64,000 bases of DNA from Hexactinellida sp. DTS-2022. Taxonomy: Eukaryota; Porifera; Hexactinellida. Numbering within the stretch: the stretch's first letter is position 1; every line of letters starts with the position of its first letter. Under the pieces are notes generated by a model. That model made no database searches. It was not told the origin of the DNA and saw nothing but the letters and a program-made list of their open reading frames with translations. The stretch covers positions 7,998,001-8,062,000 of the forward strand of contig JAPNXP010000002.1 in NCBI GenBank assembly GCA_028753945.1. Reading direction: 5' to 3'. The translations under genes were made by a program, and so were the position numbers. This document shows positions 2,401 through 51,246 of this stretch, in pieces.

Positions 2401-4283
2401 CGATCTCCAAATCTGCATTATCGTTTGATGGCTTTGATGATTGGCGTAATCCAGTTGTGATTAAAACTCATGAAAACTCACTGGAACATAGGGATGCACT
2501 CTTAACTTATCTCAGTAGGCGACGGGGAAAAACAATAGACCACCATCTTCAGAAGCAGATAAATGAGGAGCAAGAATACTGGAATCAAGTTCTTCAACGT
2601 GTCTTATCAGTTATTCGCACCTTAGCCGAACGTGGATTGGCATTTCGAGGAGGTGATGAACGATTTGGCTCTACACACAATGGGAATTTCCTCGGTATAC
2701 TGGAGCTCATTGCTGAATTTGACCCTTTCCTAGCCAGCCACATTAAGCAATATGGCAACTGTGGCAAAGGAAATACCTCATATCTGTCCAAAACGATATG
2801 TGAAGAACTGGTCAAACTGATGTCTTCCAAAGTCAGAGCATCTATTCTGGAGGATATTCAACGAGCCGGATACTTTAGTATTTCTGTTGATTCTACACCC
2901 GACCTCTCACATGTTGATCAGTTAACTGTTATCATTCGGTATGTGTCTCCCGATGACAATGTCCCTGTGGAACGCTTCCTTACATTTCTGCAAATGGAGA
3001 ATCACACTGGCGAATATCTGGCCAACAAAGTATATGGGTATTTGGTTGATGAGTGTGGACTTGATTTTAGTAAATGCAGAGGACAGTCGTACGATAATGC
3101 AGCAAATATGTCCGGAAAATATAATGGCATGCAAAGCAAAATTAGGGAGATGAACAGATTTGCTCTATACATACCTTGTGCTGGACACTCACTGAATCTC
3201 ATTGGTCGTGCTGCTGTAGATTGTTGCCTGGATGCCGTCAATTTCTTCGGTGTTGTTCAACAACTCTACAATTTCTTCTCTGGATCTACCCATCGTTGGG
3301 CAGTACTGCAATCGTATTTGGAAGAAGATTCTACTGTGCTCAAAGGGCTATGTAAGACAAGATGGGAAGCCCACGCGAAAGCCACGTCAGCTGTATTAGA
3401 TGGCTATGATTCCATTACTGGTGCTCTTCATCATATATATGAAGACATTAACGAGAAAGGTGACACAAGGCGAGAGGCTGGTAATCTTAGAGATAAGATG
3501 GAAGAGTTCGAATTTGCTCTGATGTTAGAATTATGGAATCGCATTCTGAAGCAGTTTTACCATACAAGCAAGGCATTACAGGACCCAAAGCTGTCTCTGG
3601 ACACATGCTCGAAACTGTTTGCATCACTCGACAATCTCCTTGTCAAAATCCGTGACAGTTTTGATGAAATTGAACTCAAGGCAAAGGAAAGATTACCAGA
3701 TGTAGACTACAAGGTCGCTACCAAACGGCGACGAACAAAAAAAGTTTTCTTTGATGATGGTGATACTCCATATGCCGATGATACTTTGCTTCCACGAGAT
3801 AAATTCCGGGTCACATCATTTGTGCCAATAGTTGATGCACTACAAGTCAACCTCCAAAAGAGGGCTGAGGCTTACCATAAGGTGGCAGAGGCCTTCGACT
3901 TCCTTATTGACGTCAAAATCTCCGAACAATTGTTGCAAGAGCGAGTTGAAACATTAGTGCAGATGTACTCAGATGACGTGAACACTGATCTTGTACCAGA
4001 AGTGCAGCATTTCCACTCATACATCAAGAAGAACACGACAATAGAGAAAATCAGCTACCAAGACATGTACCATATCATCAAAAAAGATAGAATCGCTATG
4101 GCCTTCCCAAATGTGGAAACGGTGTTGAAACTGTTTCTCAGTCTACCTGTGACAAACTGTTCAGGAGAAAGATCCTTCTCAAAACTGAAACACATCAAAA
4201 ATGAAACACGCACAACGATGGGACAAGAAAGACTGTCATCGCTAAGTATTTTGTATATTAGTCAGATATCCTTCGAAAATTGA
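2401..4283 (+). pseudogene. hAT transposase, DUF4371/ZMYM1-like, 5'-truncated (hAT1)
   Basis: This is a DDE-type hAT cut-and-paste transposase. The frame is open from the junction at 2401 to a stop at 4283; the first possible start is a GTG at 2457 giving 608 codons, but homologous-looking sequence (a GFDDW-type motif) extends upstream of it, so the true 5' end is missing. Visible landmarks are an SVDSTPDLSHVDQL motif near residue 143 (DUF4371 catalytic Asp region), SYDNAANMSG near 213, CAGHSLNLIG near 241, TRWEAHAKA near 301, and the C-terminal hAT dimerisation motif with NCSGERSFSKLKHIKN near 565. The N-terminal TTF-type zinc finger usual in this family is absent because the gene is cut exactly where the 2.4-kb repeat ends. 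The remaining 1.8 kb has no stop or frameshift, so truncation looks recent. Confidence 0.88.
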
Positions 4284-4639: not shown

Positions 4640-5466
4640 ATCTCAAGCCTGCAATTGCCGCTACTTTATTAGAAATTGATTTAGATATCGAGTTCTCATC
4701 TGCTGAATGGACACTGTGTGACAAAATAGTCACATGTCTAAAGTGTTTTGAAGAGGCAACAAAGTTGTTATCTTCGAAAGAAGCATCAATCAGCTCAACT
4801 ATTCCCTTTGTATTTACAATCATACGTGCTTTAGAAACAACAACTGAAGATCTTGGAATAATGAGAATGAAAAACAGACTCAAAGGTGCTATGATTGAAA
4901 GATTTAGAGACATTGAGAACTGCGAGCATTATTATCTCTCCTGTTTACTTGATCCACGATATAAGAAATATTTCTTCAAAGATAAATCAAATTTTCAACA
5001 TGCAAGATCTGTGCTAATTTCTAAAGTAGCGAATTCTATTAATTCATCTTCTGAATCTCCAAGATGCGATGACAAAGTTACAGCTGATCAACAGGATCTT
5101 TCTTTCACAAGTTTAATGGAGATAATAATAGCAGAGAACGAAGTAAGTCAATGTACTAGTACTTGCCAGGACCATTCATTTACTAATGCAAAAGACACAG
5201 TTGACAAATATCTAAATGCTACTGTAACTGAGGAATGTTTGGAATTCTGGAAAGAATATTCAAAATCAACAAATCTTTACGAAAAGAAACTAGCTGAACA
5301 AGCATTATTATATCTTACTCCACCACCGACTACCACTGATGTCGAACGTTTATTTTCAACAGCTGGTGACATTGTAACCGATGAAAGGAACAGATTACTC
5401 CCAGCAAATGCGGAAAAAATATTGTTTTGTCGAGAAAACTTACCCAAAGTTGATTTCATTTATTAG
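4640..5466 (+). pseudogene. hAT transposase C-terminal part, interrupted by hAT1 (hAT2)
   Basis: An open frame runs from the hAT1 terminus to TAG at 5464-5466, about 275 codons. The first internal start-type codon is at 4765, but the frame is coding-like from 4640. It has a WTLCDKIVTCL segment, then FEEATKLLSSK (the hAT core after the RNase H-like domain), a DPRYKKYFF motif (about 4951-4977), and a C-terminal dimerisation domain with TPPPTTTDVERLFSTAGDIV followed by NRLLPANAEKI. This pattern resembles ZBED/hobo-like hATs rather than the DUF4371 type. The 5' half is missing: it should lie to the left of hAT1, but that side has been replaced by the 2.4-kb repeat. Confidence 0.85.
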
Positions 5467-8660: not shown

Positions 8661-11021
8661 GCGTATCAAACAATTTAGCTTTTAATGTAGTAACCTTTTG
8701 AAGATTCCTACGTCATTTGTCAGCATGGGAAGTCCATTCTATAAACTGTTTTTTGGAGGGATTTGGAGCATAGCTTATCCTGTATATATGCAAAAACCTT
8801 TTAATGTTTAGAAACAAAGGATTACTTATAAAGTAAGGGGGTTATATAGATTTGAAGAATAAGTATGTGCATAGCCTACCCAATATATGGCCTGACAGTA
8901 GGTGTACCAGGGATGAACAAGAAGATGGGAAATTTAAATTTTTTAATGTTTTCTATATTGAACTATTAAGTTCTTTATGGGTCTCTAGGTCGTAAACATA
9001 ACTCAGCAGTGCTAGCCCGTGATTAGTATTAACTGTAATGAGAACGGTGATTGGATTCTCATAATTTAATAGTAATAATAAACACAAACAGTACAATTTC
9101 TATATTATTATACAGTAAATAATACACAATTATTTGCTTTCTTTACTCTCTCCTCTTTCTCTCTCTGGCTCTAGCAGTGACACACGACACACTTAACTAC
9201 ATAATAGAAATAAAAATAACAGAGTGATACAAATCATGGTAAATACAAATAAGTAGACACATAATTAACTATAATTCAGCTAAGTTAGAGTTTGATTTAT
9301 CAAGTAAGCTGCTAACAACACAACATTCGAATTTAATTGATTAATCGAACGTGGGTTAAATAAGAATTCCATACCGAGATGAAAGACCTATTAATTTGCA
9401 CAAAATCTGTCGACTATTATCTAATAAAACTTTAATTAATTATTCATAATACTAAATCAACTCAGGATATTTGGTATGGGCACCCCCTATAATTCCCAAA
9501 GTGACCGCCACCTAACACAGCCATCCCCTCCAGTGCGGCATGGAGGGTTTGTTTTCAATGTGCCAGGACATCCTGAGGGCCAAGATATAATCTCAGTCTG
9601 ATGAGAGGTTTAACATGCAGATTTTTATGAAGGGCATCGTGCGTTACATGGAAATTTGACAATAAAATCATATTTCCCTTATAAGATAAATTAAAGTTAC
9701 ATGATCTACTTACCAGTTTTTGCAGCTTTGAATATTATCATTTGATTACTTACCTAGGAAAATGAATTATTTTGTAACAGATTTAAGCATTCGCGAATAA
9801 TCTTCCGTATATCACTGAATGGGATTAGCTTTGGCCATCATTTAGGTTTTTTATCGTTCCAGATATTTCGTTTTTCGTCCTAAACGAGTAAGTAAGAGAT
9901 TACAGAACACAATAAATAAGCAAATAATACATAATCGAACTTATCGATCGATTGCTGTGTTATTCACCTCACCATGCACCGAAGTGTTGAGACATTGAGT
10001 TTCAGGTATTCTTATGGAAATTGTTCAGAAAAATCTCTATAATCTTCAAGTTTAGAAATTGGACTTGCTTTTTCAGGCCTGTGAACAGAGGAAATCAAGG
10101 AATGCCATATTTCGTTATGATTTTCTCAGTATACTCTTTGTAGTAGCTTGTTCCAACGATATTCATTTCCCATTCTAGGTGAATGTTGTGCCTACAGCTT
10201 CGCCAGTAACCTTAGTAAAAATCTAAATCGCTTTAAAGGTGTTTTCTAGCATTCGCTTTAGTGCCTCGTGGCATTGATAAATTTGTCTCAAATTGGAATG
10301 CAATTCTTAAGGTTCAGGTATCCTCTAGAGTACTTCTACCATAAGTATTTATCCGAATGAATTAATTTTTTTACAGCGGATTACTTCATCCTCAGGATGC
10401 CAAAAATACAATAATATTGGCAAATAAACTAATAGAGGAAAAATCTTTTTTTAAATTTTACCATTTTTGCGGAATAGATCAATCAGAAAAGATAAACAAT
10501 ACCAAGAATATTATTGATAAAATGTGTTTAGCTGGATGTAATATAACTTTTGAGTACAGGAATTGTGAATATCTACATTTTTCTGGATTTCAAATACTTT
10601 TATGTGATGTCGATTTTCAAATGAAGATTTTCCTTATCCAAAATCCAAAAAACAGATGAACTATTCATATTAGGGTAGATCGCAGCCCTGAAAAGTTGTA
10701 TCTTTACGAGATCTCTCCGAAACCGTTGAGTTTTTGATTCTACGACCAAAATTGACAAAATGACTTCTTCCGCAATTCTGAAAATGTTAGTTTTGGGAAA
10801 GCGGCTTTTGAAAAAAAAATTTACAGCAATTATTCCTAAATTGAGGTGACCAAAGTGTGTCAAACTGGAAAAATAATAGGAATCTAGCTTAGAAATCTCT
10901 TGAGAGTACTCATTGGTATCAATATAATCCCAAAATGCAATAAAAGAGAAATAGACAATGATTTGGATTTTATCTAAATATTCGAAATTTGTAGAGTATA
11001 CCTGAACCTTAAGTAGTAAGT
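8622..11021. repeat. 2.4-kb direct repeat, copy 2
   Basis: Second copy of the segment at 1-2400, same orientation, offset 8621. The 6.2 kb between the copies holds the two nested hAT genes and several MITEs. Apparent identity over 2.4 kb of non-coding DNA implies a very recent duplication, gene conversion, or an assembly artefact. Confidence 0.93.
10307..11012. mobile_element. TTAA-1 MITE, copy 2
   Basis: This is the same element as 1686-2391, carried inside the second 2.4-kb direct repeat. Both TTAA sites and both inverted ends are intact. Confidence 0.8.
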
Positions 11022-21314: not shown

Positions 21315-24300
21315 CAGTGATGATTTCCAGGGGGAACGCGGGGGAACGCCGTTCCCCCTTGAGAAATTCAAGCGCGGAGTGATCGGCGTTCCCCTAATAG
21401 ATCATTCAGTTGTGCAAATGTTTGTTTAAGTGTTGTTTGATGTATTTTTAAATCAGACGTCCCGTCAATCTCGGACTCAACGAGGGTTTGTAAATAAGAT
21501 ACTTAACAAGAATTAAATGCTTTGTTTACTCTATACACTTATATTGGCTTCTTTAATAGTAGTATCATTAATTGTTAACCAGACAAATCAGATCACTCAC
21601 ACAGTGTTAAAAACAATGTGCAAACAATTTAGCGCATAATTTTTTGACGGTAATTATGATTAGCATGACCATTACAATTTATTACGGGCTAATAAAACAG
21701 ACAAGCGAACAAACATATCTCAATTGTGTTTTAAATAAATTGATTACGATGGCTTATCATACTTGTTGCACTTGATATGCATAGAAGTAGAATATACTTA
21801 CTTTCTTATTAAACTTTCTAAATATGAAAAATATTATATAATGCTCCTATAAATGACCATGATTTTCCATTAAATCATTGTTCCAACGTGTAAAATTCAG
21901 CTTTAATCAAATTTGAATATTTTGTTTTTGATCAAGCTTGTTTGTTAGGGATGTCCAAGCAATCTAAAATGATTGGATTCTTTAATTAAGAGACCTGCTC
22001 AAGATTCAATTTCAGAAGGCGAACAACAAACGCGCCATATTTCAATCGATTTCGATGAGGATGTGGCACTTGACGTTTCTCCAGGGTCCTTGACAGGGGC
22101 TGATAAACCGGACATATGGACAAATGAAATGTGGGTTGAAAAACAGCAGCAATATCCATGGTTATCGTGTAAAAATGCTAAACTTGGTTGTAGTCTTTGT
22201 GCATCTGCAAGAGGTCTAGGTCCACTCAAAATGCAAGGGGTTTACTTAAGTCCAGAATGGCAGACAACTAATGTCACATATAATGGGCACTCGCATGAAG
22301 CCAAGCTCGCGTCACTAAGGAAAAAGATTTTCAAACATTTGCATTCATATGCACATATTAAAGCAAAAGATATCGTTGCTCATCAGAAGAAAAACAGTAT
22401 GGTTACCCATTTAGAAGTTATGAATAGCATATACTTGGATACAACAAAGAGAATTTTCCGTACGAGTTATTATATAGCAAAAAATGACAGACCACTGAGC
22501 GATCATCAAGGCTTGGTTGACTTGCAAATTCAGAATGGAGTTGATATGGGGACTGGTTTGCGCTCACGTTTCTCTGCAGCTGCAATAATTGATCATATTG
22601 CAAATGAGATGCGTTCTACAATTTGCAAAACTATAAAGGAAAACAATGGCAAAGTTTCCATCCTCATTGACGAATCCAACACGGGATCCGACATTTCAAC
22701 TCTTATTATCTACTTGAATGCTCAACTTGAGACATCCGGAGAACCTCAATTTCTGTTCTTGGATTTGGTGGAGTTGACAAATGGTGAGAGTGCAGAAGAG
22801 ATTCACAAGGCATTAATTACTTGTTTGAATAGTAATTCATTTAATATGGATTATTTGCAAAAACATTTCATTGCTTTCACATCTGACGGAGCTAGTTTCT
22901 TAACTTGACGGAAATCAGGAGTTATGGCGCTACTCGCGAAGGACTTTCCGAATCTCATCACTTGGCATTGTTTGAACCATCGCCTAGAACTTGCAGTTGA
23001 TGATGCCATTGTAAATTTAAATGGAATAAACCATTTCAAAACTTTTATAGAGAAATTGCACTCAGTATACAGTCAGTCACCCAAAAACAAGCGACAGTTG
23101 AAAGAAATTGCAGAGAATCTAGATGCCCAGCTTCTTAAAATTGTTAAGATATTGAACACGAGATGGGTCGCTAGTAGTTTCCGAACCGTGCTGGCAGTTT
23201 GGAACAACTATGAACCACTCTATTGGCACTTCAAAGCCAAAATAACGGAGAAGGGAAAGCAATCTGTAATGTATGAGGGCTTGAACAAACGAATTCAGTC
23301 TCCAGAATTCTTACTAGACTTGGCGCTCATGTACGATGTACTTTTTGAGCTTTCCGAGCTCTCCGAAAGCCTACAAAACCGTTCAATGAACATCGTCAAA
23401 GCCGACATATGTATTAGGAGAGCCATGAGAAGCATCGAATCATTGAAACGTAAGATCGGAACAAAGATGATGATAGCTAGTGATTCAATTAAAGATGGGA
23501 AATTTGGGACTATAACTCTAAGTTCTAATCGTCGACATGTCAGTATCGATACTACGCATTCATTGGTAAGTTGCTGGATGCTATGAAGGATCGTCTTTTT
23601 GCTACGAATGCAGCTGGATCTGTTCGAACGCATGATGCCTACCAGAAGCTGCTTGATGAAATTAGAGTTCTTTTTCCTAATTATTGGCCTCAAAATATGA
23701 ATTTTGACTATGGTGTTGGAGAGGTACGATCATTGTGCAATCGTTTCGGCCTTACAACAAATTCTACAGTGTCTGCGTTCCAAGACTACGTTGACAATCA
23801 AGGACGACGAGTTCCAGACGATCTTCATCCTTTACTGAGATGCTGTTCCTGTATTCCTGTTTCATCAGCTGAATGCGAGCGAGGATTTAGTCAATTGAAC
23901 TTAATTAGAACTTCTACACGAAACCGTCTTCTCATTGAGAGGATATCACACTTGATGTTTGTAAAACTGCATGGCCCTCCGATTGACGCTTGGATTCCAG
24001 ATAAACATGCCAAATCTTGGTTACAAGCGCACCATACAGCAGATGACCAAAGAGTAAAAAAACGCAAAATGGATCAAACAGAGCAAGAGGAGAGAACTGC
24101 TAAGAATAAAGTTTAGGAATTACTATAGAATTAATGTTAAAAATTTGAATTAACAAAATTTAGTTTCCATATAATATTCAAAGTAAACTAAATTTTGTTC
24201 TTTAATTAGTAGCTATAAGGAATCAAATTGATAAAATTCTTCCATGCCTAGGAGGATAGAACAGACTCATTAAATTTTCAAGAGCGTTCCCCCACTTCTA

Positions 24301-35994: not shown

Positions 35995-38690
35995 ATGCCA
36001 AATAAATGTTCTGCTCCTGGTTGTCGAAGCAACTATGATGGCGAGCCATACACCCCGGTCTTCAAATTACCCCAGAACAATGATATGGAGCAAGAATGGC
36101 TGCATGCTCTTCATAGAGTCGGTATTTCTGATCTGAAATGCGTATATGTAAGTGCAAAACACTTTCGCCCGGAAGATGTTATTACTGATGTTGATATGCC
36201 ACAACCCGATGGATCGATCATTAAAGTCAAACGTCGTCCAATCCTTCGTGATAACGCTTGTCCCTGCTTCTTATCCAATTGCCCCACTTACCTTAGTTCA
36301 CATCCTACCTCTACCAAACCTAAACGTTTGGATCCAGATCATATAGACTTAACACATTTTAAAACAGCCTTGCAATACAGCCAAGAAGAATATGACATAG
36401 AACAGAAGAAATTTGCTGTCGATTCTTTTGATCAAATAAAATCAAAACTGATGCATCAAGAATTTTCACTTAATTCGTTGATTTGGTACCCTAGTTCAGC
36501 AGAAATTAATCTTATCAAACCTTCAACTTCTGGAGATGCTATTTCTATCACTAGTTCTATCAAAATAGACAGTTCGCTAACTGTCAAAGGATTCGTTCAC
36601 GACACACAGATCCCACTCTCAGTAAGTAGTATTAGTGATGAAGGCAAGTTTATACTCTAATGACCGAAGTTGAAGGGTATAAACGTACTCTTTTGGATGC
36701 AATATCCTTGCAGCTGTTAAATGGTTGAGAACCGCAAAACTAAATTTAGAAAACCTCGACGAAATTTCCGATGAAGATTCTCATTATCTGCCCAGTCTAG
36801 AATTTGTACTCTCTCAACTTGAAAATCTACTCGTATCCAAGACTCGTAGGAAGTATGACCTCATAACCATGGTTCTCGCACTGAAATGTAAAATTAAATC
36901 CCCTGCTTGGTATAGATTTCTTCAGACCCAAGAGTATCTCATACTGCCTCATTACAACACCTTACGCCGGCTCTACACAAGTATTGGACTGGAAGACGAA
37001 TTTATATCTTACCTAAAGGTGTCCACTAAAGAGTTTAACAGCTTAGAACGAAACGTCGTTCTACACATGGACGAAATTCATATTAAATCGGATTTTTCTT
37101 ATACTGGCGGTAGAATAATCGGTTCTTCAGTTAACACTAAACTCAAGCCTGCAACTATTGTATTAGCATATATGGTTTCAAGTCTTTGTAAAAATGGTCC
37201 ACCATTGTTCGCTTACTACCTTGTTCAAGAACATCAGCTTCTGAACTATTCCCCATTACCAAACAGATAATTTCAGATATAGAATATTGCGATCTTCAAG
37301 TCCAAGTATTGTGTACAGACAACTATTCTCTTAATGTTAAATTATTCAAATGCTTCTCTCCCTCGGCTACCTTAGAACCAACTGTACCACATCCTATTGA
37401 TTCAGCCAGATCACTTAACCTTATGTTCGATTTTGTCCACATAATGAAGACAATACGTAACAATTGGCTCAATCAGAAAGATGTCAGTCATACGTTTATC
37501 TTCCCAAAATTCGACAACTTTTCCCTTTCTAATAAGGCTTCTTTCGAGGATGTGAGACTGTTATTTAAAACAGAACAACACAACGTTGCCAAGACTGCAC
37601 ATCGTCTAACCGTGAAATCTTGTTGGCCTTCTAACCTTTAGCGACAGAACGTTGGTTTGGCTTTGAGGGTATTTAATGAATCCACTGCGGCTGCTCTTCA
37701 ACTCCATGCATCCAAAGAAAACCTTTCTTCCCAGACATCCGAGTTTATTACATTGATCACAAATATATGGAAAATATTCCATGTTAATTCTCCAAACAAA
37801 GGATTTCGGCTCAATGATACAAATCCCATGCCTTTAAGAAACAACAATGTGAGATTTTCATTTCTCTCAAAAGTTGTAGAATGGCTAGATAACTGGAAGA
37901 TGATTCCAGGGAAACTCGGGAATCTAAGCAGTCAGACTTTCACCAGTTTCCGACATTCTTGTATTGCACTTCAAAATACCGTTAATATTCTCACTGGAAT
38001 TCGTGGCTTTACCTATGTCCTGAGTTCATTCCTACAAAACGATCCACATGAACATCACTTGTCTTTATCGAATAATGTCAGGAGCTCAATATAATGTTAC
38101 GCTTTCTCAAATTTTGGAAACTGAGAGGCGGATTAAATTATCTTGTATACTAAAAATTTTCTCTGCTACCATTCCAGCTAATCGTCCAGATTATTTGTAA
38201 GAATTTTTTGAATAATTTTCTGATTCGCCACGCAAAGACGATACAACAATTGATGATTTAGAACCATATAGTTTACTCCTTGATACTTTTTAAACCCCTC
38301 CCATATCTGATCCATTTATTTTACAATCCCTTGCTTTCATCGCCGGCTATACAGCTCACTCTATTTACAAAAGCAAAGTATGCTGTAAACCTACGAAGGA
38401 TTCAACTACCAAATCTATGTGTCCTAGTTGTTTGTCTTTTCTAACAGAAGACAAAGATTTGGAATTCGAAGACCATGCCGATTCAATTTATGGCTTAATA
38501 CAATTACAAGATCGGGGTGGGCTTAAATGGCCATCAGTTCCTGTACTCGAAGCTGTATGCACTTTATGGAATTTATATATGAAAATTGAAAAGGATTCCA
38601 ATCAATTCGCTCAATTTCTAGAAGCACCGTCTCGCGAATTCTTGTCACTCTGGCGATGCTTATTATTGAATCTCATTAAGTAGAGTTTTG
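35995..38690 (+). pseudogene. P-element/THAP9-like transposase, nearly full length but broken (P2)
   Basis: This is a DDE-type P-element transposase with an N-terminal THAP DNA-binding finger. ATG 35995 gives CSAPGC (Cys 5 and 10), KLP near residue 25, Trp 35 and KHFRPED at 55-61. The third zinc ligand Cys is replaced by Ser 53 (codon AGT at 36151). The first frame stops at 36660; a short frame from ATG 36660 (start overlapping the stop) and then 36725-37270 continue with PAWYRFLQTQEYLILPHYNT and LHMDEIHIKSDFSYTGG, which contains the likely first catalytic acidic pair. 37309-37641 has CTDNYSLN and FDFVHIMKTIRNNWLNQ; 37657-38094 has NLSSQTFTSFRHSC and NDPHEHHLSL, then frameshifts; 38417-38683 is the C-terminal RGGLKWPSVPVLEAV region. 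At least five frame breaks make it dead. Confidence 0.9.
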
Positions 38691-44649: not shown

Positions 44650-44770
44650 TGTATACATTTTAAGCTTAGTTATGCAATTACAGAGCAGATTGGAGAATTA
44701 CACTACAATATCTACAAAGACGCTAAAACTACCCATACCGCTAATACATTTTTCACCCTAAGCATCCTTA
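44650..44770 (-). repeat. 3'-end fragment of the hAT5 family
   Basis: TTAGTTATGCAATTACAG and CCATACCGCTAATACATTTT match 63401-63488, the region just past the hAT5 dimerisation domain. It stops at CCTTAATCAC, where TTAA-1-family sequence begins. Confidence 0.6.
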
Positions 44771-45375
44771 ATCACTTATGAGTCAAATTTTTCATCAATA
44801 TATGTGGACATCACTTTTTTCATCATCAATAAATTAAATAAAAAGAAAAGTTACAAATGAAATCGCTGAACTCATGTGATAGAACTAATTGAGAGCTGTC
44901 CAAAACCGTTGAGATTTTGTTTCCAGGTGGTATATGAGTCATAATATGACTTCCGCAATGGCAATAATTGTGTTTGGAGATAGCGGGGTTGAAAAAAAGT
45001 GTCCCCTATAGCAGTGGCTTAGGTGGAGGACTCTAAAAAGTTCGTATCATTGAAGGTTTTCAATATTTTTCCATAAGATTTGAAATTAAGATGCGAAATC
45101 TGCTGTTATATCTAAATATTAGATTAAACCTATATGTGGCTATTACCCGAAATTATCAATTTTCTAGGGTATACTGCAACCGGCAACCAACATCAGAACC
45201 CCTGTTTTTTTTTTTCAAAGCTCGAGGTGAGTCAAACTGGAGAAATAATTGGAATTTTTCTTAGAAATTTCGTGAGAGTCCACATGGGTATCCACAGAAT
45301 CCGAAAATGCAATAAAAACGAGATTAACAATGTTTGGGATTTAATCGAATTTGGGATTTCGTAGAGTATACCTGA
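44767..45375. mobile_element. TTAA-1 family diverged copy, one end only
   Basis: Matches 49905-50480 in reverse: TGTCCAAAACCGTTGAGATTTT, GTCCCCTATnGCAGTGGC and GGTATACTGCAACCGGCAAC. The right end reads TAGAGTATACCTGA but lacks the final ACCTTAA; the left terminus is missing. Confidence 0.7.
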
Positions 45376-45599
45376 GTATGCTCTTCAACACTTTTTCCAC
45401 ATTTTTTTTCAGATTTGAAAGATATTTTTAGTTTTAGATTGCCAGCGGCGAGATATATCCAAAAATGCAATAATATTCGACCTAGGTAACATTGAGAAAA
45501 TATTATATTTTCTAAAAACACATTTTGAGTAATCGGAAAAGTTTTTTTCATGTTGATGATAAGAATTGTTTCCTATTTTATTACTTAGAGAAGCTTCTA

Positions 45600-46040
45600 A
45601 CCTATCAAATGAATGTACAACTTCTTTTGATTACTTATGAGTCCAATTTTCCATCAATTTCTGTGAGAGCACTTTTTTTATGATTAATAAATCAAATCAA
45701 ATTAGAAAGAAATGTTAATAATGAAATCCATACATTCATTTGATAGTGCTCATTGAGAGCTGTCCAAAACAGTTGAGATTTTCTTTCTAGGTTGTATATG
45801 AGCCAAAATGGGTCTTACTCAACGACAAAAATTCTGTTCCGAGGTAGCGGCGATGGAAAGAATGACCCCCCCAAGGAAGTGGCTCAGGTGGAGGACACTA
45901 AAAAGTCTGTATCAATCAAAGTTTTCAATATTTTGCGATGAAATTTGGAATTGATATGCGGCATAGGCTGTTCTATCCAAAAATAACATAAAACCGATAT
46001 GTGGCTAATTACCCGAAAGTTGAAATTTTTGTGGTATACC
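45600..46040. mobile_element. TTAA-1 family fragment, second tandem copy
   Basis: Repeats the internal part of 44767-45180 (ATTACTTATGAGTCnAATTTT, GAGAGCTGTCCAAAACnGTTG, GTGGCTnAGGTGGAGGAC) in the same orientation with more divergence. Both termini are missing. Confidence 0.65.
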
Positions 46041-46059
46041 CCTACCTACTGCCAGTAAT

Positions 46060-46300
46060 GGAAAATATTATTTTTTTAAAATAAAATTAAAATTAAAATC
46101 AATTTATTTAAAGTTGATTTACTATTTGAAAATGGTGAAACCTATTTCAATCGTAGTTATTTCAACGTAATATTACAAAGTATACTTACTGCGAAATTCT
46201 CAATTGAATACCTATTATATAATTTGAGTTATGTTCATTCAAATCAATGAATATAATTTCCCAAAAATCAAATAAATCAAATTTTCCTAGCCTGACTACA
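46060..46300 (-). repeat. Inverted fragment of the 43.6-kb hAT element
   Basis: CTTACTGCGAAATTCTCAATTG, then ATACCTATTATATAATTTGAG and TTCATTCAAATCAATGA are the reverse of 44250-44320. It lies just downstream of gene A. Confidence 0.7.
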
Positions 46301-46439
46301 ACACTGCTGTATACTTTCCAGGAACAAAATACATTGTATCCATAAATAATTATACCCTCACAACTAATAAGAAGTTGATTATAATATAGAATGCAACATA
46401 TATTGTATGCATACATATTTCTAACCTGAAATTGCCTAG

Positions 46440-46500
46440 AGGTCACTGCCACTGCCACTGCCACCGCCACCTCCGCCTCCGCCTCCGCCACCGCCGCCTC
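46440..46500 (-). repeat. GGAGGCGGC/GGTGGC triplet repeat downstream of gene A
   Basis: A run of CCGCCA, CCTCCG and CTGCCA triplets (plus strand) begins just past the gene A stop. A similar GGAGGTGGA run follows the candidate third gene at 54060-54110. Confidence 0.75.
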
Positions 46501-46512
46501 CTTGTTTAGGAT

Positions 46513-46823
46513 TTATCTCCGCCACAGGTAGCATCCCCCTGCTATACATAGGAGGATCATGGGGATGCTAACCCCTAGGGCAATGGCAGCCTCCCGGAAG
46601 CTGCGCATCTCTTTCCGGGCCTGCTCGGCCTCTTCTAGGGCGTGATCTCTCTGATCTAAATATAAAGTATGATGAGTGTGTAAAGGAAATATCCATAGCT
46701 ATAGTGAGTGAAATTACCTCTAAACTGTTTTGTTTGGAGCCCGGAGACCCACAACCGAACGCGTAGTTTGTAAATGGCCTCCTCGAGATATACATAGTCT
46801 TGAGGCTTTGGGACTGTAGACAT
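46513..46823 (-). CDS. Tandem gene A: small coiled, C-terminally anchored membrane protein
   Basis: A two-exon gene: exon 1 46823-46718 (ATG at 46823), a 62-bp intron 46717-46656 (GTAATT...TTTAG), exon 2 46655-46513 ending TAA. The intron is phase 1. The product is 82 aa: residues 1-57 are hydrophilic with heptad-like charged helix (DHALEEAEQARKEMRSFREA, about 38-57), then about 20 hydrophobic residues (ALGVSIPMILLCIAGGCYLW, 61-80) and terminal RR. There is no signal peptide, so a tail-anchored or type II/IV membrane topology is inferred. The neighbour at 47165-47556 has the same exon structure, intron length and phase, and architecture. I recognise no family. The splice model and ORF are seen in the sequence; function is unknown. 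Confidence 0.72.
46656..46717 (-). other. 62-bp intron of gene A
   Basis: Starts GTAATTTCACTCACT and ends CTTTATATTTAG on the minus strand. The gene B intron is the same length and begins GTACTTTCACTCACT and ends CACTATATTTAG, so both descend from one intron. Confidence 0.75.
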
Positions 46824-46847
46824 GCTAATTGTTGTAATAGGTATAAC

Positions 46848-46953
46848 ATTTCATTATTGTACAGAATAAATGGTGACCGATTGTCTCAATTATTGGATCA
46901 GAGTGTATCTTTCCTATTTCTATAAAGGAAAGAAATATTCCATCATTTCCAAG
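46848..46953 (-). promoter_or_regulatory. Conserved upstream block of gene A
   Basis: About 106 bp, identical to 47581-47686 on reading, located about 25-130 bp upstream of the gene A ATG. It contains CCTTTATAGAAATA, a possible TATA-like element on the coding strand. Presumed promoter and 5' UTR by position. Confidence 0.6.
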
Positions 46954-46959
46954 AGAATT

Positions 46960-47160
46960 TTGTGTATTTTATGTGTATTTATTTTGTAGTTTTTATGTTT
47001 TTTGTGTATTTTTTTGTGGGTATTTTTGTTTTTTGTGTATTTTTTGGTAGTTTTTTTGTTTTTTGTGTAGTTTTTTGTAGTTTTTTTGTAGTTTTTTTGT
47101 GTATTTTTTTGTAGTTTTTTTGTTTTTTGTGTATTTGTTTGTAGTTTATTTGTTTTTTTG
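46960..47160 (+). repeat. T/G-rich low-complexity array, copy 1
   Basis: Repeats of TTTTTTGTAGTTTTTTTGTTTTTTGTGTA. Reverse-strand frames here (Lys/Thr/Asn-rich) are artefacts of the repeat. It separates gene B's stop from gene A's upstream block. Confidence 0.85.
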
Positions 47161-47164
47161 GGAT

Positions 47165-47556
47165 TTATCCCCTCATCCACCAACAAAACGAGCCCAGGCA
47201 TACTAGGATAGGTATCCCGATGCCCAGGCCCAGGCCAATAACTATGGCATCAGAAATAGCGCTCTGCATGCCACGGAGGTGGAGCAATTCATCGTGCTCA
47301 GCTCCGTGCACCCCCCGGAGCCGCGCCACTTCCCTGAGCGCGTCATCACGTTCAGCTAAATATAGTGTTATAGAGTGGGAACAGGAAATCTACACATGCT
47401 CAAGTGAGTGAAAGTACCTCGGTATTTCTCAGCTTCGCCGCGAGCGGCCGCCTCTCTCCTGCTGAATTCGCGGCGAGCGCCCGTCTCTGCTAATTGGGCC
47501 ACACGGATTAGGCGATGCACTTCTGGGATATCAGTTATCCTGAGCGATAATGGCAT
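47165..47556 (-). CDS. Tandem gene B: paralogue of gene A, 109 aa
   Basis: Exon 1 is 47556-47418 (ATG at 47556), intron 47417-47356 (62 bp, GTACTT...TTTAG), exon 2 47355-47165 ending TAA. The intron is phase 1, as in gene A. The protein has an Arg/Glu-rich helical region at about 15-77 (RREFSRREAAARGEAEKYR in exon 1; AERDDALREVARLRGVHGAE opening exon 2), and a hydrophobic anchor at about 83-107 (AIVIGLGLGIGIPILVCLGS then FCWWMRG). Compared with gene A the start of exon 2 (xxRDxALxE) and the anchor are similar, while exon 1 is almost unalignable. The start lies 733 bp from gene A's start, matching the tandem unit. GC content of the exons is far higher than in surrounding DNA. Function unknown. 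Confidence 0.74.
47356..47417 (-). other. 62-bp intron of gene B
   Basis: GTACTTTCACTCACT at the donor side and CACTATATTTAG at the acceptor side; homologous to the gene A intron in length, phase and end sequences. Confidence 0.75.
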
Positions 47557-47580
47557 TTCTAATTGTATATGTTATATCAT

Positions 47581-47686
47581 ATTTCATTATTGTACAGAAT
47601 AAATGGTGACCGATTGTCTCAATTATTGGATCAGAGTGTATCTTTCCTATTTCTATAAAGGAAAGAAATATTCCATCATTTCCAAG
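47581..47686 (-). promoter_or_regulatory. Conserved upstream block of gene B
   Basis: Identical to 46848-46953 over about 106 bp. The match ends abruptly at 47687, where the T-rich arrays begin with different sequence. Confidence 0.6.
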
Positions 47687-47699
47687 GCAATTTTCACTA

Positions 47700-47880
47700 T
47701 TTTTTTGTGTGGAATTTGTTTTTTGTGTATTTTTTGTAGTATTTTTGTTTTTTGTGTATTTTTTTGTTGTAATTTTGTTTTTTGTGTATTTTTTTGTAGT
47801 ATTTTTTGTTTTTTCTGTATTTTTTTGTTGTATTTTTGTTTTTTCTGTATTCTTTTGTAGTTTTTTTGTTTTTTGTTCTA
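47700..47880 (+). repeat. T/G-rich low-complexity array, copy 2
   Basis: Same composition as 46960-47160, upstream of gene B. Apparent reading frames on both strands are low-complexity artefacts. Confidence 0.85.
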
Positions 47881-48103: not shown

Positions 48104-49305
48104 CTAACAACAATTACATAGGGGGCATATCCACAAATCATCTTCTCCGACATCTACAGCTACAACATTCATATTCCTCAAACAATTATTATGATGCCAA
48201 CCATCACAGATATCACAACATAACCAGGCTACACTTACACTAATATCTTTACCAATACTACTACCCGCCTTGTTCAATATCCCACTGTCTTCGCTCCCTC
48301 CACATATTTTACATTTTATGTCCATATCCCGTGGCACAGTTGCTGTTTGGGAAAAGGCTCCGCTATTATAGGTAGCTCCACGCTTCCGGGAGCGCTTTGC
48401 TTGTTTTAGGGACCACCTACGCTTAGTATTATTTGCACATCTTAAACTATTTGTAATTCTCTCATTATCGAACTCTTTACCAAATTATCTATTGAAAAAT
48501 AACCGTTCAATCCTAAAATATCGATGATTTTTTGAATCCCAGCTATCCCCTCGTTGAAACGAAGAATTGATAAACTACAACCTAATTACATCAAACTCAA
48601 TTCTATTGGCTTAGTTTTACTAATACAGTTCCAAATCATCCCATGAAGGTTCTCATTCAAATTTGAGGTATTACCACTCTGAACCTTTTCCAAAAATGAC
48701 AGCGCAAAATATGGTGCTAAAATATCTAAAACACGATCCCTACAGGCTAAACTGATGCACCTGGGATGTTTTGGAATGGTATCTCCTACAACTACCGCTT
48801 TCTGATACATGCAAAATGAATCAACACCCTTCTCACAATATTTATGCATTTCATGACAATTCTCATCATTAGCAGCTAAATGATAAACAATTCCCAACAA
48901 TGCTTCACGTAATTCAATTAGATTACCACCAATTCTACTTTTTACAACAAAGCCATAAAGTGATGTTATTTTATCAATTATATTATCAGCTAAAAGATTT
49001 ATTTCAATAGATATATCTCCTAATTCTTCACTATCACCCCAATTATCTCTCCCTTTTTTCAAATCCCTAAGCGTAGATGGCCGATATAGATCCCTAACAG
49101 ATCTTTTCTGCGCTTCTGTTTTACATTGCCCCAATTCGTGTTGCAATAGTGTCTTTTGAGAAGCAATAAATTCTTTTTGTTTTTCAACTAAATGTATTCG
49201 TATACGCTTCTGAACATGGCTCAAACATTCCTCCCTCCTTATTGTTAAATTAAATTCCCCATAAATGTTATTTTCAGCTAATATATTGATACTTTTATCA
49301 TCACC
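48104..49305 (-). pseudogene. Mutator-like transposase with C-terminal PHD finger, 5'-truncated
   Basis: The main minus-strand frame (49224-48586, open upstream to about 49305) holds CEKGVDSFCMYQKAVV and SGNTSNLNENLHGMIWNCIS, the H/C..KGxDSxCxYQ and GxTxNxNExLxxxIW pattern I associate with animal Mutator-like elements (Pfam Mutator, PF20700). After a TAA at 48586 the same frame continues (SLSILRFNEGIAGIQKIIDI), shifts near 48480, and joins the frame 48470-48104 with basic KRRWSLKQAKRSRKRG and then a C4HC3 PHD finger: CKICGG, CCDICDGWHHNNC and CPLC. PHD fingers bind histone tails, so targeting to chromatin marks is a plausible but untested role. The N-terminal half is missing where a hAT-like end begins at 49303. 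Confidence 0.75.
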
Positions 49306-49490
49306 ATCCAGGGCTGTATCAACTCATTTTGAGTTGGAAAAATCAACTCATTTTTCTGAATGAGTTGAATGAGTTGGTAGTGGTCTAAATGAATGAGTTG
49401 AATGAGTTGATAGCTCACTTGAATGAGTTGAAATGAGTTCAACTCATTTTAGAAATGAGTTTGTTTGAACCAACTCATTTCTAAAATTGG
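49303..49490 (+). repeat. AATGAGTTG-repeat region with hAT-like end
   Basis: Starts CAGGGCTGTATCAACTCATT, a hAT-type terminus, followed by more than ten short copies of AATGAGTTG in both orientations. The other terminus is not visible; it may have been removed by the TTAA-2 element at 49670. Confidence 0.5.
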
Positions 49491-49669: not shown

Positions 49670-51246
49670 TTAAGGAGATAGACCGGTGGATTTTCGACAC
49701 CCGATGACCCCCAATTATTATTGTGTTTATGAACAGTACTAATTATTCTAAGAAGGACGTAGATACTCAGAATTTTTAAAATCGAAAAATTTGAATTAGA
49801 TATTCATAGTCAAAGTTTAGCCTAATAGTGAATCCATACTAGTATTCAAAATTCTAGCTATTTAAGGTTCAGGTCTACTCTACAAAATACCAAAATTTCG
49901 ATAAAATCCCAAACATTGTAAATCTCGTTTTTATTGCATTTTCTGATTGTGTGGACACCCATGTGGATTCTCACGAAATTTCAAAGAAAAATTCCAATTA
50001 TTTCTCCAGTTTGACTGACTTCGAGTTTTGATAAAAATATCGGGGTTCTGGTGTTGGTTGCCGGTTGCAGTATACCATAGAAACTTGATAATTTCGGGAC
50101 ATAGCCACATATAGGTTTTATCTTATATTAGGATAGAACAGCATATATCGCATCTTAATTTCAAATCATATGGATAAATATTGAATACTTTCAATGATAC
50201 ATACTTTTTAGTGTCCTCCACCTAAGCCACTGCCATAGGGGACACTCTTTTCAAACCCCGCTATCTCCAAACACAATTATTGGCATTGCGGAAGTCATAT
50301 TATGACTTATATACCACCTAGAAACAAAATCTCAACGGTTTTGGACAGCTCTCAATTAGTTCTATCATATGAGTGCAGCGATTTCATTTGTAACTTCTCT
50401 TTTTCTTTTAATTTAATTTATTGATGATGAAAAAAGTGATGTCCACATTTATTGATGAAAAATTTGACTAATAAGTGATTAAAAGAATTCTTGCACTCAT
50501 ATGATAGTTTAGAAGTTTCTCCATGCAATGCAACAACATTCTACTCTTAATCATTAACAGGAAATACTTATCCGTTCCGCAAAATACGATTTTATAGAAG
50601 AAAAAAAATTTCACTGAGTTACCTAGATCGAATATTATTGCATTTTTGCCATTTAGAAGCTGAAGTAAATCCGCTGTAAAAATTTAATTAATTCGGGTGA
50701 ATATATTTGGTAGAAGAGCTCTAGAGTATACCTGAACCTTAATCTATTTGGCGCATGTTCTATTATAGTGCAAGTTTAACTCTACTACATTAGTACAAGG
50801 GTTTATGCCACACAGAATTTGTGATATCGATTTGATTCTTTTTTTCCATAGATTTTCAAATAATCAAGCGATTTTATCAGAAATTTGGCATTATATAATT
50901 ATTAACTCTAAAACATTGTAATAAAGTTGAAAATCGAAACGGCAAAATCCCAAGAACAACTGACAAGGATCATTTTTGAGGGATAATTTTTTTCTCTACG
51001 ACTTATACTTTTTGAGATACACATAAGTATACAAAGGTCACTCCCCGGAAATTCTGACAGATTGTATTTGTACAAAATGAAGGTGATTTTGACCTTTGGT
51101 GACGTCAAAAAGGTAAAAAAAATGTCCGAATCAAATTTTTCTTTTGGATTTGGATAGATACCATGTCAAGGTAGAGCGAGGAGTATTTATCATAGATAAT
51201 TTGGATCCAGCCTTCGATTGACAAATCGACCGGTCTATCTCATTAA
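49670..51246. mobile_element. TTAA-2 element, second copy, with TTAA-1 insertion
   Basis: TTAA flanks, ends GGAGATAGACCGGTGGATTT and (other strand) TGAGATAGACCGGTCGATTT. Internal sequence matches 15662-16300 closely. A TTAA-1 element is inserted at 49862; the uninterrupted copy at 15855-15870 shows the empty site. Confidence 0.85.
49862..50742. mobile_element. TTAA-1 MITE, copy 5, nested in TTAA-2
   Basis: TTAA on both sides and GGTTCAGGTCTACTCTA / CCTGAACC ends. The body is the diverged subtype also seen at 44767-46040. Interrupts AGCTATTTACTCTAATTGGC of the host element, duplicating TTAA. Confidence 0.88.

Follow-up and report, generated by a model that had tools for sequence, protein, structure and literature searches.

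The two split genes that we rebuilt on the minus strand of the window, by which we mean the whole 64,000-nucleotide stretch of DNA from Hexactinellida sp. DTS-2022 that was analysed, are probably not isolated host genes but accessory genes carried by a DNA transposon that has TTAA-GG ends and a PF20700 transposase (we put the probability at roughly 0.75). A unit of this kind has a conserved leader and a putative phase-1 intron of 62-64 nt; its product of 80-110 aa is charged and probably helical towards the N-terminus and closes with a single C-terminal anchor and a short tail, which makes it likely to be tail-anchored. The initial annotation of this DNA had suggested a lineage-specific gene family; that the genes belong to no known family stands as far as the searches went, whereas the main point, that they are cargo of a TTAA-flanked PF20700 transposon, had been missed.

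Structure and genomic copies of the split genes

Gene A and gene B were rebuilt by script from ATG, splice sites and stop (Table 1), giving products of 82 aa and 109 aa from coding totals of 249 nt (106 + 143) and 330 nt (139 + 191). This agrees with the initial annotation, which had proposed two two-exon genes with 62-nt phase-1 introns and these same totals, and the architecture recurs in other copies. Exon 2 opens with the RDxAL-type pattern pointed out earlier (QRDHALEE in A, ERDDALRE in B), and the C-terminal hydrophobic anchor that had been described is found in both products, with best 19-residue Kyte-Doolittle means of 2.23 (A) and 2.46 (B) and tails of 5 and 8 residues between the end of the hydrophobic stretch and the C-terminus. 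Each product contains two Cys, placed within or beside the anchor.

Table 1. Positions in the window of the two microprotein genes, the remains of their probable carrier element and other transposase genes.
Feature	Position	Strand	Length	Remarks
Gene A exon 1	46823-46718	minus	106 nt	
Gene A intron	46717-46656	minus	62 nt	putative; phase 1, GTAA..TTAG; 95-98% identical in E5, E6, E8
Gene A exon 2	46655-46513	minus	143 nt incl. stop	predicted helix and C-terminal anchor
Leader of gene A	46824..46970	minus		12 matches in genome
Gene B exon 1	47556-47418	minus	139 nt	charged N-terminal part
Gene B intron	47417-47356	minus	62 nt	putative; phase 1, GTAC..TTAG; 94% identical to N2 intron
Gene B exon 2	47355-47165	minus	191 nt incl. 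stop	predicted helix and C-terminal anchor
Leader of gene B	47557..47703	minus		129-nt direct repeat (95%) and alignments; mosaic
Decayed 3' part of PF20700-type transposase gene	48106..49323	minus		frame interrupted; ends in PHD-like Cys/His stretch
3' flank of element	45383..46512	minus		GGTGGCGGT-like repeat, then sequence common to other copies
hAT transposase part	2457-4283	plus		open frame; DUF4371 and hAT dimerisation
hAT transposase part	4765-5466	plus		open frame; hAT dimerisation
hAT transposase part	23571-24116	plus		open frame; hAT dimerisation
Further transposase gene	35995-36660 and 36725-37270	plus		adjacent frames; THAP domain, TNP-like RNase H N-terminal domain

Searches for relatives bore out the earlier remark that no family is recognisable, as far as they went. 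The spliced products gave nothing above cut-off in Pfam, and Anoctamin_N (E=0.07) and Mid2 (E=0.031), both far below threshold, were rejected as identities; a 7-sequence alignment of the microproteins was run against a protein database, where 7993 candidates were scored and none was a homologue at E<=1. The missing relatives may reflect how rarely such split genes are predicted. The whole window gave no Rfam match at gathering thresholds.

Within the genome itself, where the annotation had recommended searching, both genes have relatives: protein A gave 18 matches and protein B 4 at E<=10, and a 141-bp stretch of the gene A leader gave 12 matches in the 112-Mb assembly, 11 of them on a single contig, C11. 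A 24-nt leader pattern allowing up to two mismatches occurs at 25 places, of which 12 are exact, 2 have one mismatch and 11 (uninspected) have two; the reversed control gave 2. In all, we found 15 microprotein units at 12 loci, on C11 (the window, E2 and E3 with two units each, and E4, E5, E6, E7, E8, N2 and N4) and on C1 (E9 and D8); the loci are not independent, since a single duplication exceeding 15 kb includes E2 and E3. Seven units have a spliced frame that is open throughout (A, B, E5, E6, E8 with a GC donor, N2 and N4), those of the window lying at C11:8.0445-8.0457 Mb and the other five near C11:13.843, 9.220, 6.677, 6.611 and 10.236 Mb, and seven others are broken (both units of E2, both of E3, E4, E7 and E9). 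The remaining one, D8, has a short open spliced frame with a 64-nt intron, a stop before the usual tail and extra leader sequence, and was counted as cut short and left out of the intact set. Disrupted homologous loci had been named in advance as evidence against the genes and do exist, next to the seven open frames; a mixture of broken and intact units suits a transposon family.

The intact units share their build, with an exon 1 of 97, 106 or 139 nt (all phase 1), an intron of 62 or 64 nt, an anchor with a Kyte-Doolittle mean of 2.0-2.5 in six products (1.51 in N2) and a C-terminal tail of 5-8 residues except in E5, which has a long extra tail. The E5 unit is without the usual stop, and its frame continues across the GGTGGCGGT repeat to form a tail rich in Val, Ala and Glu. 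In E6, a 7-residue ERDHARN-like unit occurs three times in frame within the helix. The intron of E7 is split by other DNA with a TTGAGCGAAACC-like satellite at both borders, leaving its exons about 4.5 kb apart.

A transposon as the probable carrier of the units

The decayed transposase gene of the window lies upstream of gene B and is 83-99% identical in DNA to eight other copies over 1.2 kb, closest to E4 (98.8%), E2 and E3 (about 98%), E5 (97.1%) and E7 (96.8%), and less close to N1 (94%), E6 (88%) and N4 (83%). In intact relatives the domain PF20700 ('Mutator-like transposase') is recognised at E=1.5e-36 and 9.2e-38. The most complete picture of the element comes from N4 (C11:10.236 Mb), where TTAAGGTTCAGGTAT termini with TTAA-GG at both ends stand 4941 bp apart and enclose a 912-codon open transposase frame with a 2A-like leader, followed by a microprotein gene, which we call gene C. 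This gene is 25% identical to A in the alignment and has a related leader, a phase-1 intron of 64 nt and a C-terminal anchor. The N4 transposase ends in a PHD finger just below threshold (22.7 vs 24 bits). The right ends of both E6 and E9 likewise show TTAA-GG, and in N2 a B-like gene sits between a different PF20700 lineage and terminus-like sequence.

Among the 13 close transposase copies inspected, the unit lies downstream in eight (window, E2, E3, E4, E5, E6, E7 and N4) and is absent in five (N1, N3, N5, N6 and N7), of which N1 and N7 retain sequence from beyond the gene. More distant PF20700 copies had no unit within about 2.1 kb in seven of seven cases judged by eye. At the start of the intact transposase frames stands a hydrophobic peptide that closes with a 2A-like motif (GGVEVNPGPP or GGVEENPGPP); four of 13 transposase relatives in the database have such a motif (P0002, P0003, P0005 and P0007), and the other nine lack it or start later. 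In viral contigs, seven stretches matched a transposase pattern and none was confirmed.

The window copy is a remnant that lacks the 5' part of the transposase and has no recognised termini of its own. Its alignment with E4 extends down to 45383, the right terminus is not recognisable at the 3' flank, and a search for the 5' terminus recognised none in an area that other repeats overlie. Short TTAA-ended repeats, about 91% alike and in inverted orientation, flank the gene-bearing remnant at 49862-50742 and near 44768-45375. We considered whether the genes might be later exons of the transposase transcript and did not adopt this reading: a stop closes the transposase frame, and every unit comes with a separate leader and ATG.

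Exon divergence, mosaics and rival explanations

Divergence between copies is concentrated in the exons. Although the transposases of the window and E5 are 97% alike, window A is only 61% identical to E5 in exon 1 and 80% in exon 2, against 98% in the intron and 95% in the leader; exon 1 has 65 of 106 positions matching where an identity of 95% would be expected (binomial 7e-26). Comparison with E6 and E8 gave similar values (exon 1 63-64%, intron 95-97%, leader 92-98%). The closest gene to that of E5 is found in E6 (exon 1 85%, exon 2 88%), although the two transposases are only 86% alike; the intron and leader, with 124 of 127 positions shared, are more alike than the transposases (binomial p=1e-5), so these stretches look constrained too.

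Two units are mosaics. Exon 1 of E4 equals that of the first E3 unit (91/91) and its exon 2 equals that of the second (77/77), and its intron, which matches the second unit at 61 of 62 positions and the first at 56 of 62, fits a switch point early in the intron. The leader of gene B in the window shares its ATG-distant part with gene A, nearly letter for letter down to AATGAAAT; beyond that point, in the ATG-proximal leader and onwards, B follows the unit of N2, whose carrier transposase is of a different lineage (aa identity of 26-42% to N4 and N1 over three aligned pieces). Taken together, these mosaics suggest that recombination within the conserved leader and intron has joined exon cassettes, and the cassettes appear to have been exchanged between element copies and across distant transposase lineages.

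Substitutions within intact units point to translation. Pooling three intact pairs (A/E8, E5/E6 and B/N2), a choice restricted to intact units that leans towards constraint, we obtained a pS of 0.272 and a pN of 0.170, a ratio of 0.63 (Fisher p=0.0019). Changes in exon 2 are purifying (pN/pS 0.48, p=0.0016), and the ratio of 0.78 in exon 1 is not significant (p=0.15). A pN/pS below 1 in intact pairs supports translation, of exon 2 at least. The architecture of A and B is thus more than chance, given that the structure recurs in the genome and that the changes in intact pairs favour translation, the splicing itself being putative.

If the genes do belong to the element, the divergence of their exons might still be neutral, and we rate this at even odds: old tandem paralogues would have been sorted by crossing over, with leaders and introns kept alike by constraint or conversion and no arms race involved. 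The tandem units in the window, E2 and E3 and the fusion of two E3 units in E4 fit such a history, as do the pairwise dN/dS values of exon 1, which range from 0.43 to 0.97 over seven pairs and never exceed 1, with silent sites diverged too. Taken alone, however, neutral sorting leaves unexplained why a B-like body also occurs with a distant transposase lineage, and it does not say why the exons alone escaped homogenisation.

It is unlikely, in our estimate, that the units are a host family of variable membrane microproteins that was picked up by, or lies beside, the transposon and works for the host, with the transposase an incidental neighbour. Ten of the 12 loci lie on C11, which makes up 13.8% of bases (binomial p=1e-7, E2 and E3 being one duplication), and the units of E8, E9 and D8 were not seen beside a close-family transposase, as a host family might have it; yet the position of the units is unchanged behind two distinct transposase lineages, the two termini of N4 enclose gene C, and the transposase is itself crowded on C11. 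A 355-aa piece of the E5 transposase has at least 120 genome matches, at least 75 of them on C11 among the matches listed (114 of 246 candidates scored), and the bias therefore belongs to the element. That the units are no genes at all, merely chance open frames alike by common descent in a GC-rich, repeat-flanked part of the transposon, would suit the GC-rich exons that adjoin GGTGGCGGT repeats, the eight broken or shortened units and the lack of a database homologue among the candidates scored, but is very improbable in view of the conservation of splice sites, intron phase and frame among A, B and C, the constraint on exon 2 and the steps in GC content at exon-intron borders (e.g., 0.47, 0.29 and 0.58 along gene A).

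Superfamily placement and a possible membrane role

Accessory genes of a transposon, as we take the units to be, can be compared with those of named superfamilies. Kolobok elements are marked by TTAA target-site duplications and 5'-RR ... YY-3' termini, according to the portion of PMC9587614 drawn on here. A related short element in E2 lies between two TTAA where the matching E3 site has one, an empty site that belongs to this short relative, the full element showing only the TTAA at both ends of N4; inside the TTAA, the termini carry GG. On the strength of the TTAA duplication and the two-purine termini, we call the element Kolobok-like, as it looks by termini and target site, whereas the Pfam name of its domain, found above cut-off in two intact frames, is Mutator-like. 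Target duplications of MuDR elements are longer (8-11 bp), and at the E2/E3 site only TTAA is duplicated, so that target site and termini point to Kolobok and not to MuDR. In the transposase, a CLSH follows an ADGDD stretch and is a candidate for the C/DxxH motif that Kolobok transposases have between the second D and the last E, a motif common to five superfamilies according to PMC9587614.

A transposase accompanied by a lineage-specific accessory protein is a further likeness to Kolobok, where KolX, exonucleases, a RecQ helicase and a His-Me nuclease have been named in several lineages (Kojima and Bao 2022, PMC9587614, in the part drawn on). The present element differs in its putatively spliced, anchored microprotein and in the 2A-like leader of its transposase. 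KolX is described in the same part of that paper as a cytoplasmic ballast fold with seven conserved Cys; compared by Cys content, A and B, with two each, do not resemble it. The word 'transmembrane' does not occur in the main text of PMC9587614, and we found no report of such an accessory gene in the open literature searched. N-terminal signal sequences that are 2A-like and also recode translation are described in part of PMC4981915, whose text contains neither 'transposase' nor 'DNA transposon'; the hydrophobic N-terminal peptide ending in a 2A motif is alike, and here it stands ahead of a transposase and any ribosomal skipping is putative. As in tail-anchored proteins, a hydropathy script run on the seven intact products found one hydrophobic stretch at the C-terminal end as the only such signal, followed by a tail that is short except in E5.

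The combination of an anchored microprotein with a 2A-linked hydrophobic leader suggests that membranes are involved in part of the element's life cycle. Tentatively, and with more doubt than confidence, we propose as the most likely role that the microproteins might act as an ER or nuclear-envelope membrane factor of the element, the variable N-terminal helix engaging a changing partner, from the host or the element, and thereby favouring transposition or escape from control. Equally speculative is a wider reading, that this is a TTAA transposon lineage whose recombining, hypervariable tail-anchored microproteins and 2A-linked leader would form a membrane-targeting kit belonging to the element itself and varied by the shuffling of exons, in a conflict either with the host or among elements.

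The usual picture of a eukaryotic DNA transposon comprises two ends and a transposase of the nucleus. A second protein, spliced and membrane-anchored, together with the exchange of cassettes between transposase lineages would, if true, widen the coding repertoire of transposons, and a cytoplasmic or nuclear-envelope step would enter the transposon life cycle. The case also carries a warning, as tiny split genes that ORF scans miss may belong to the load of a transposon instead of being new genes of the host.

Other elements are present in the window, among them parts of hAT transposases and a further transposase gene (Table 1). The stretches at 1374-2391 and 9995-11012, 8.6 kb apart, agree in the ends and the flanks of a short TTAAGG-ended element, which gives the impression that a longer segment was duplicated. 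Contigs C11 (15.6 Mb) and C1 (17.6 Mb) are far longer than the four other contigs compared, which measure 5.4-6.6 Mb.
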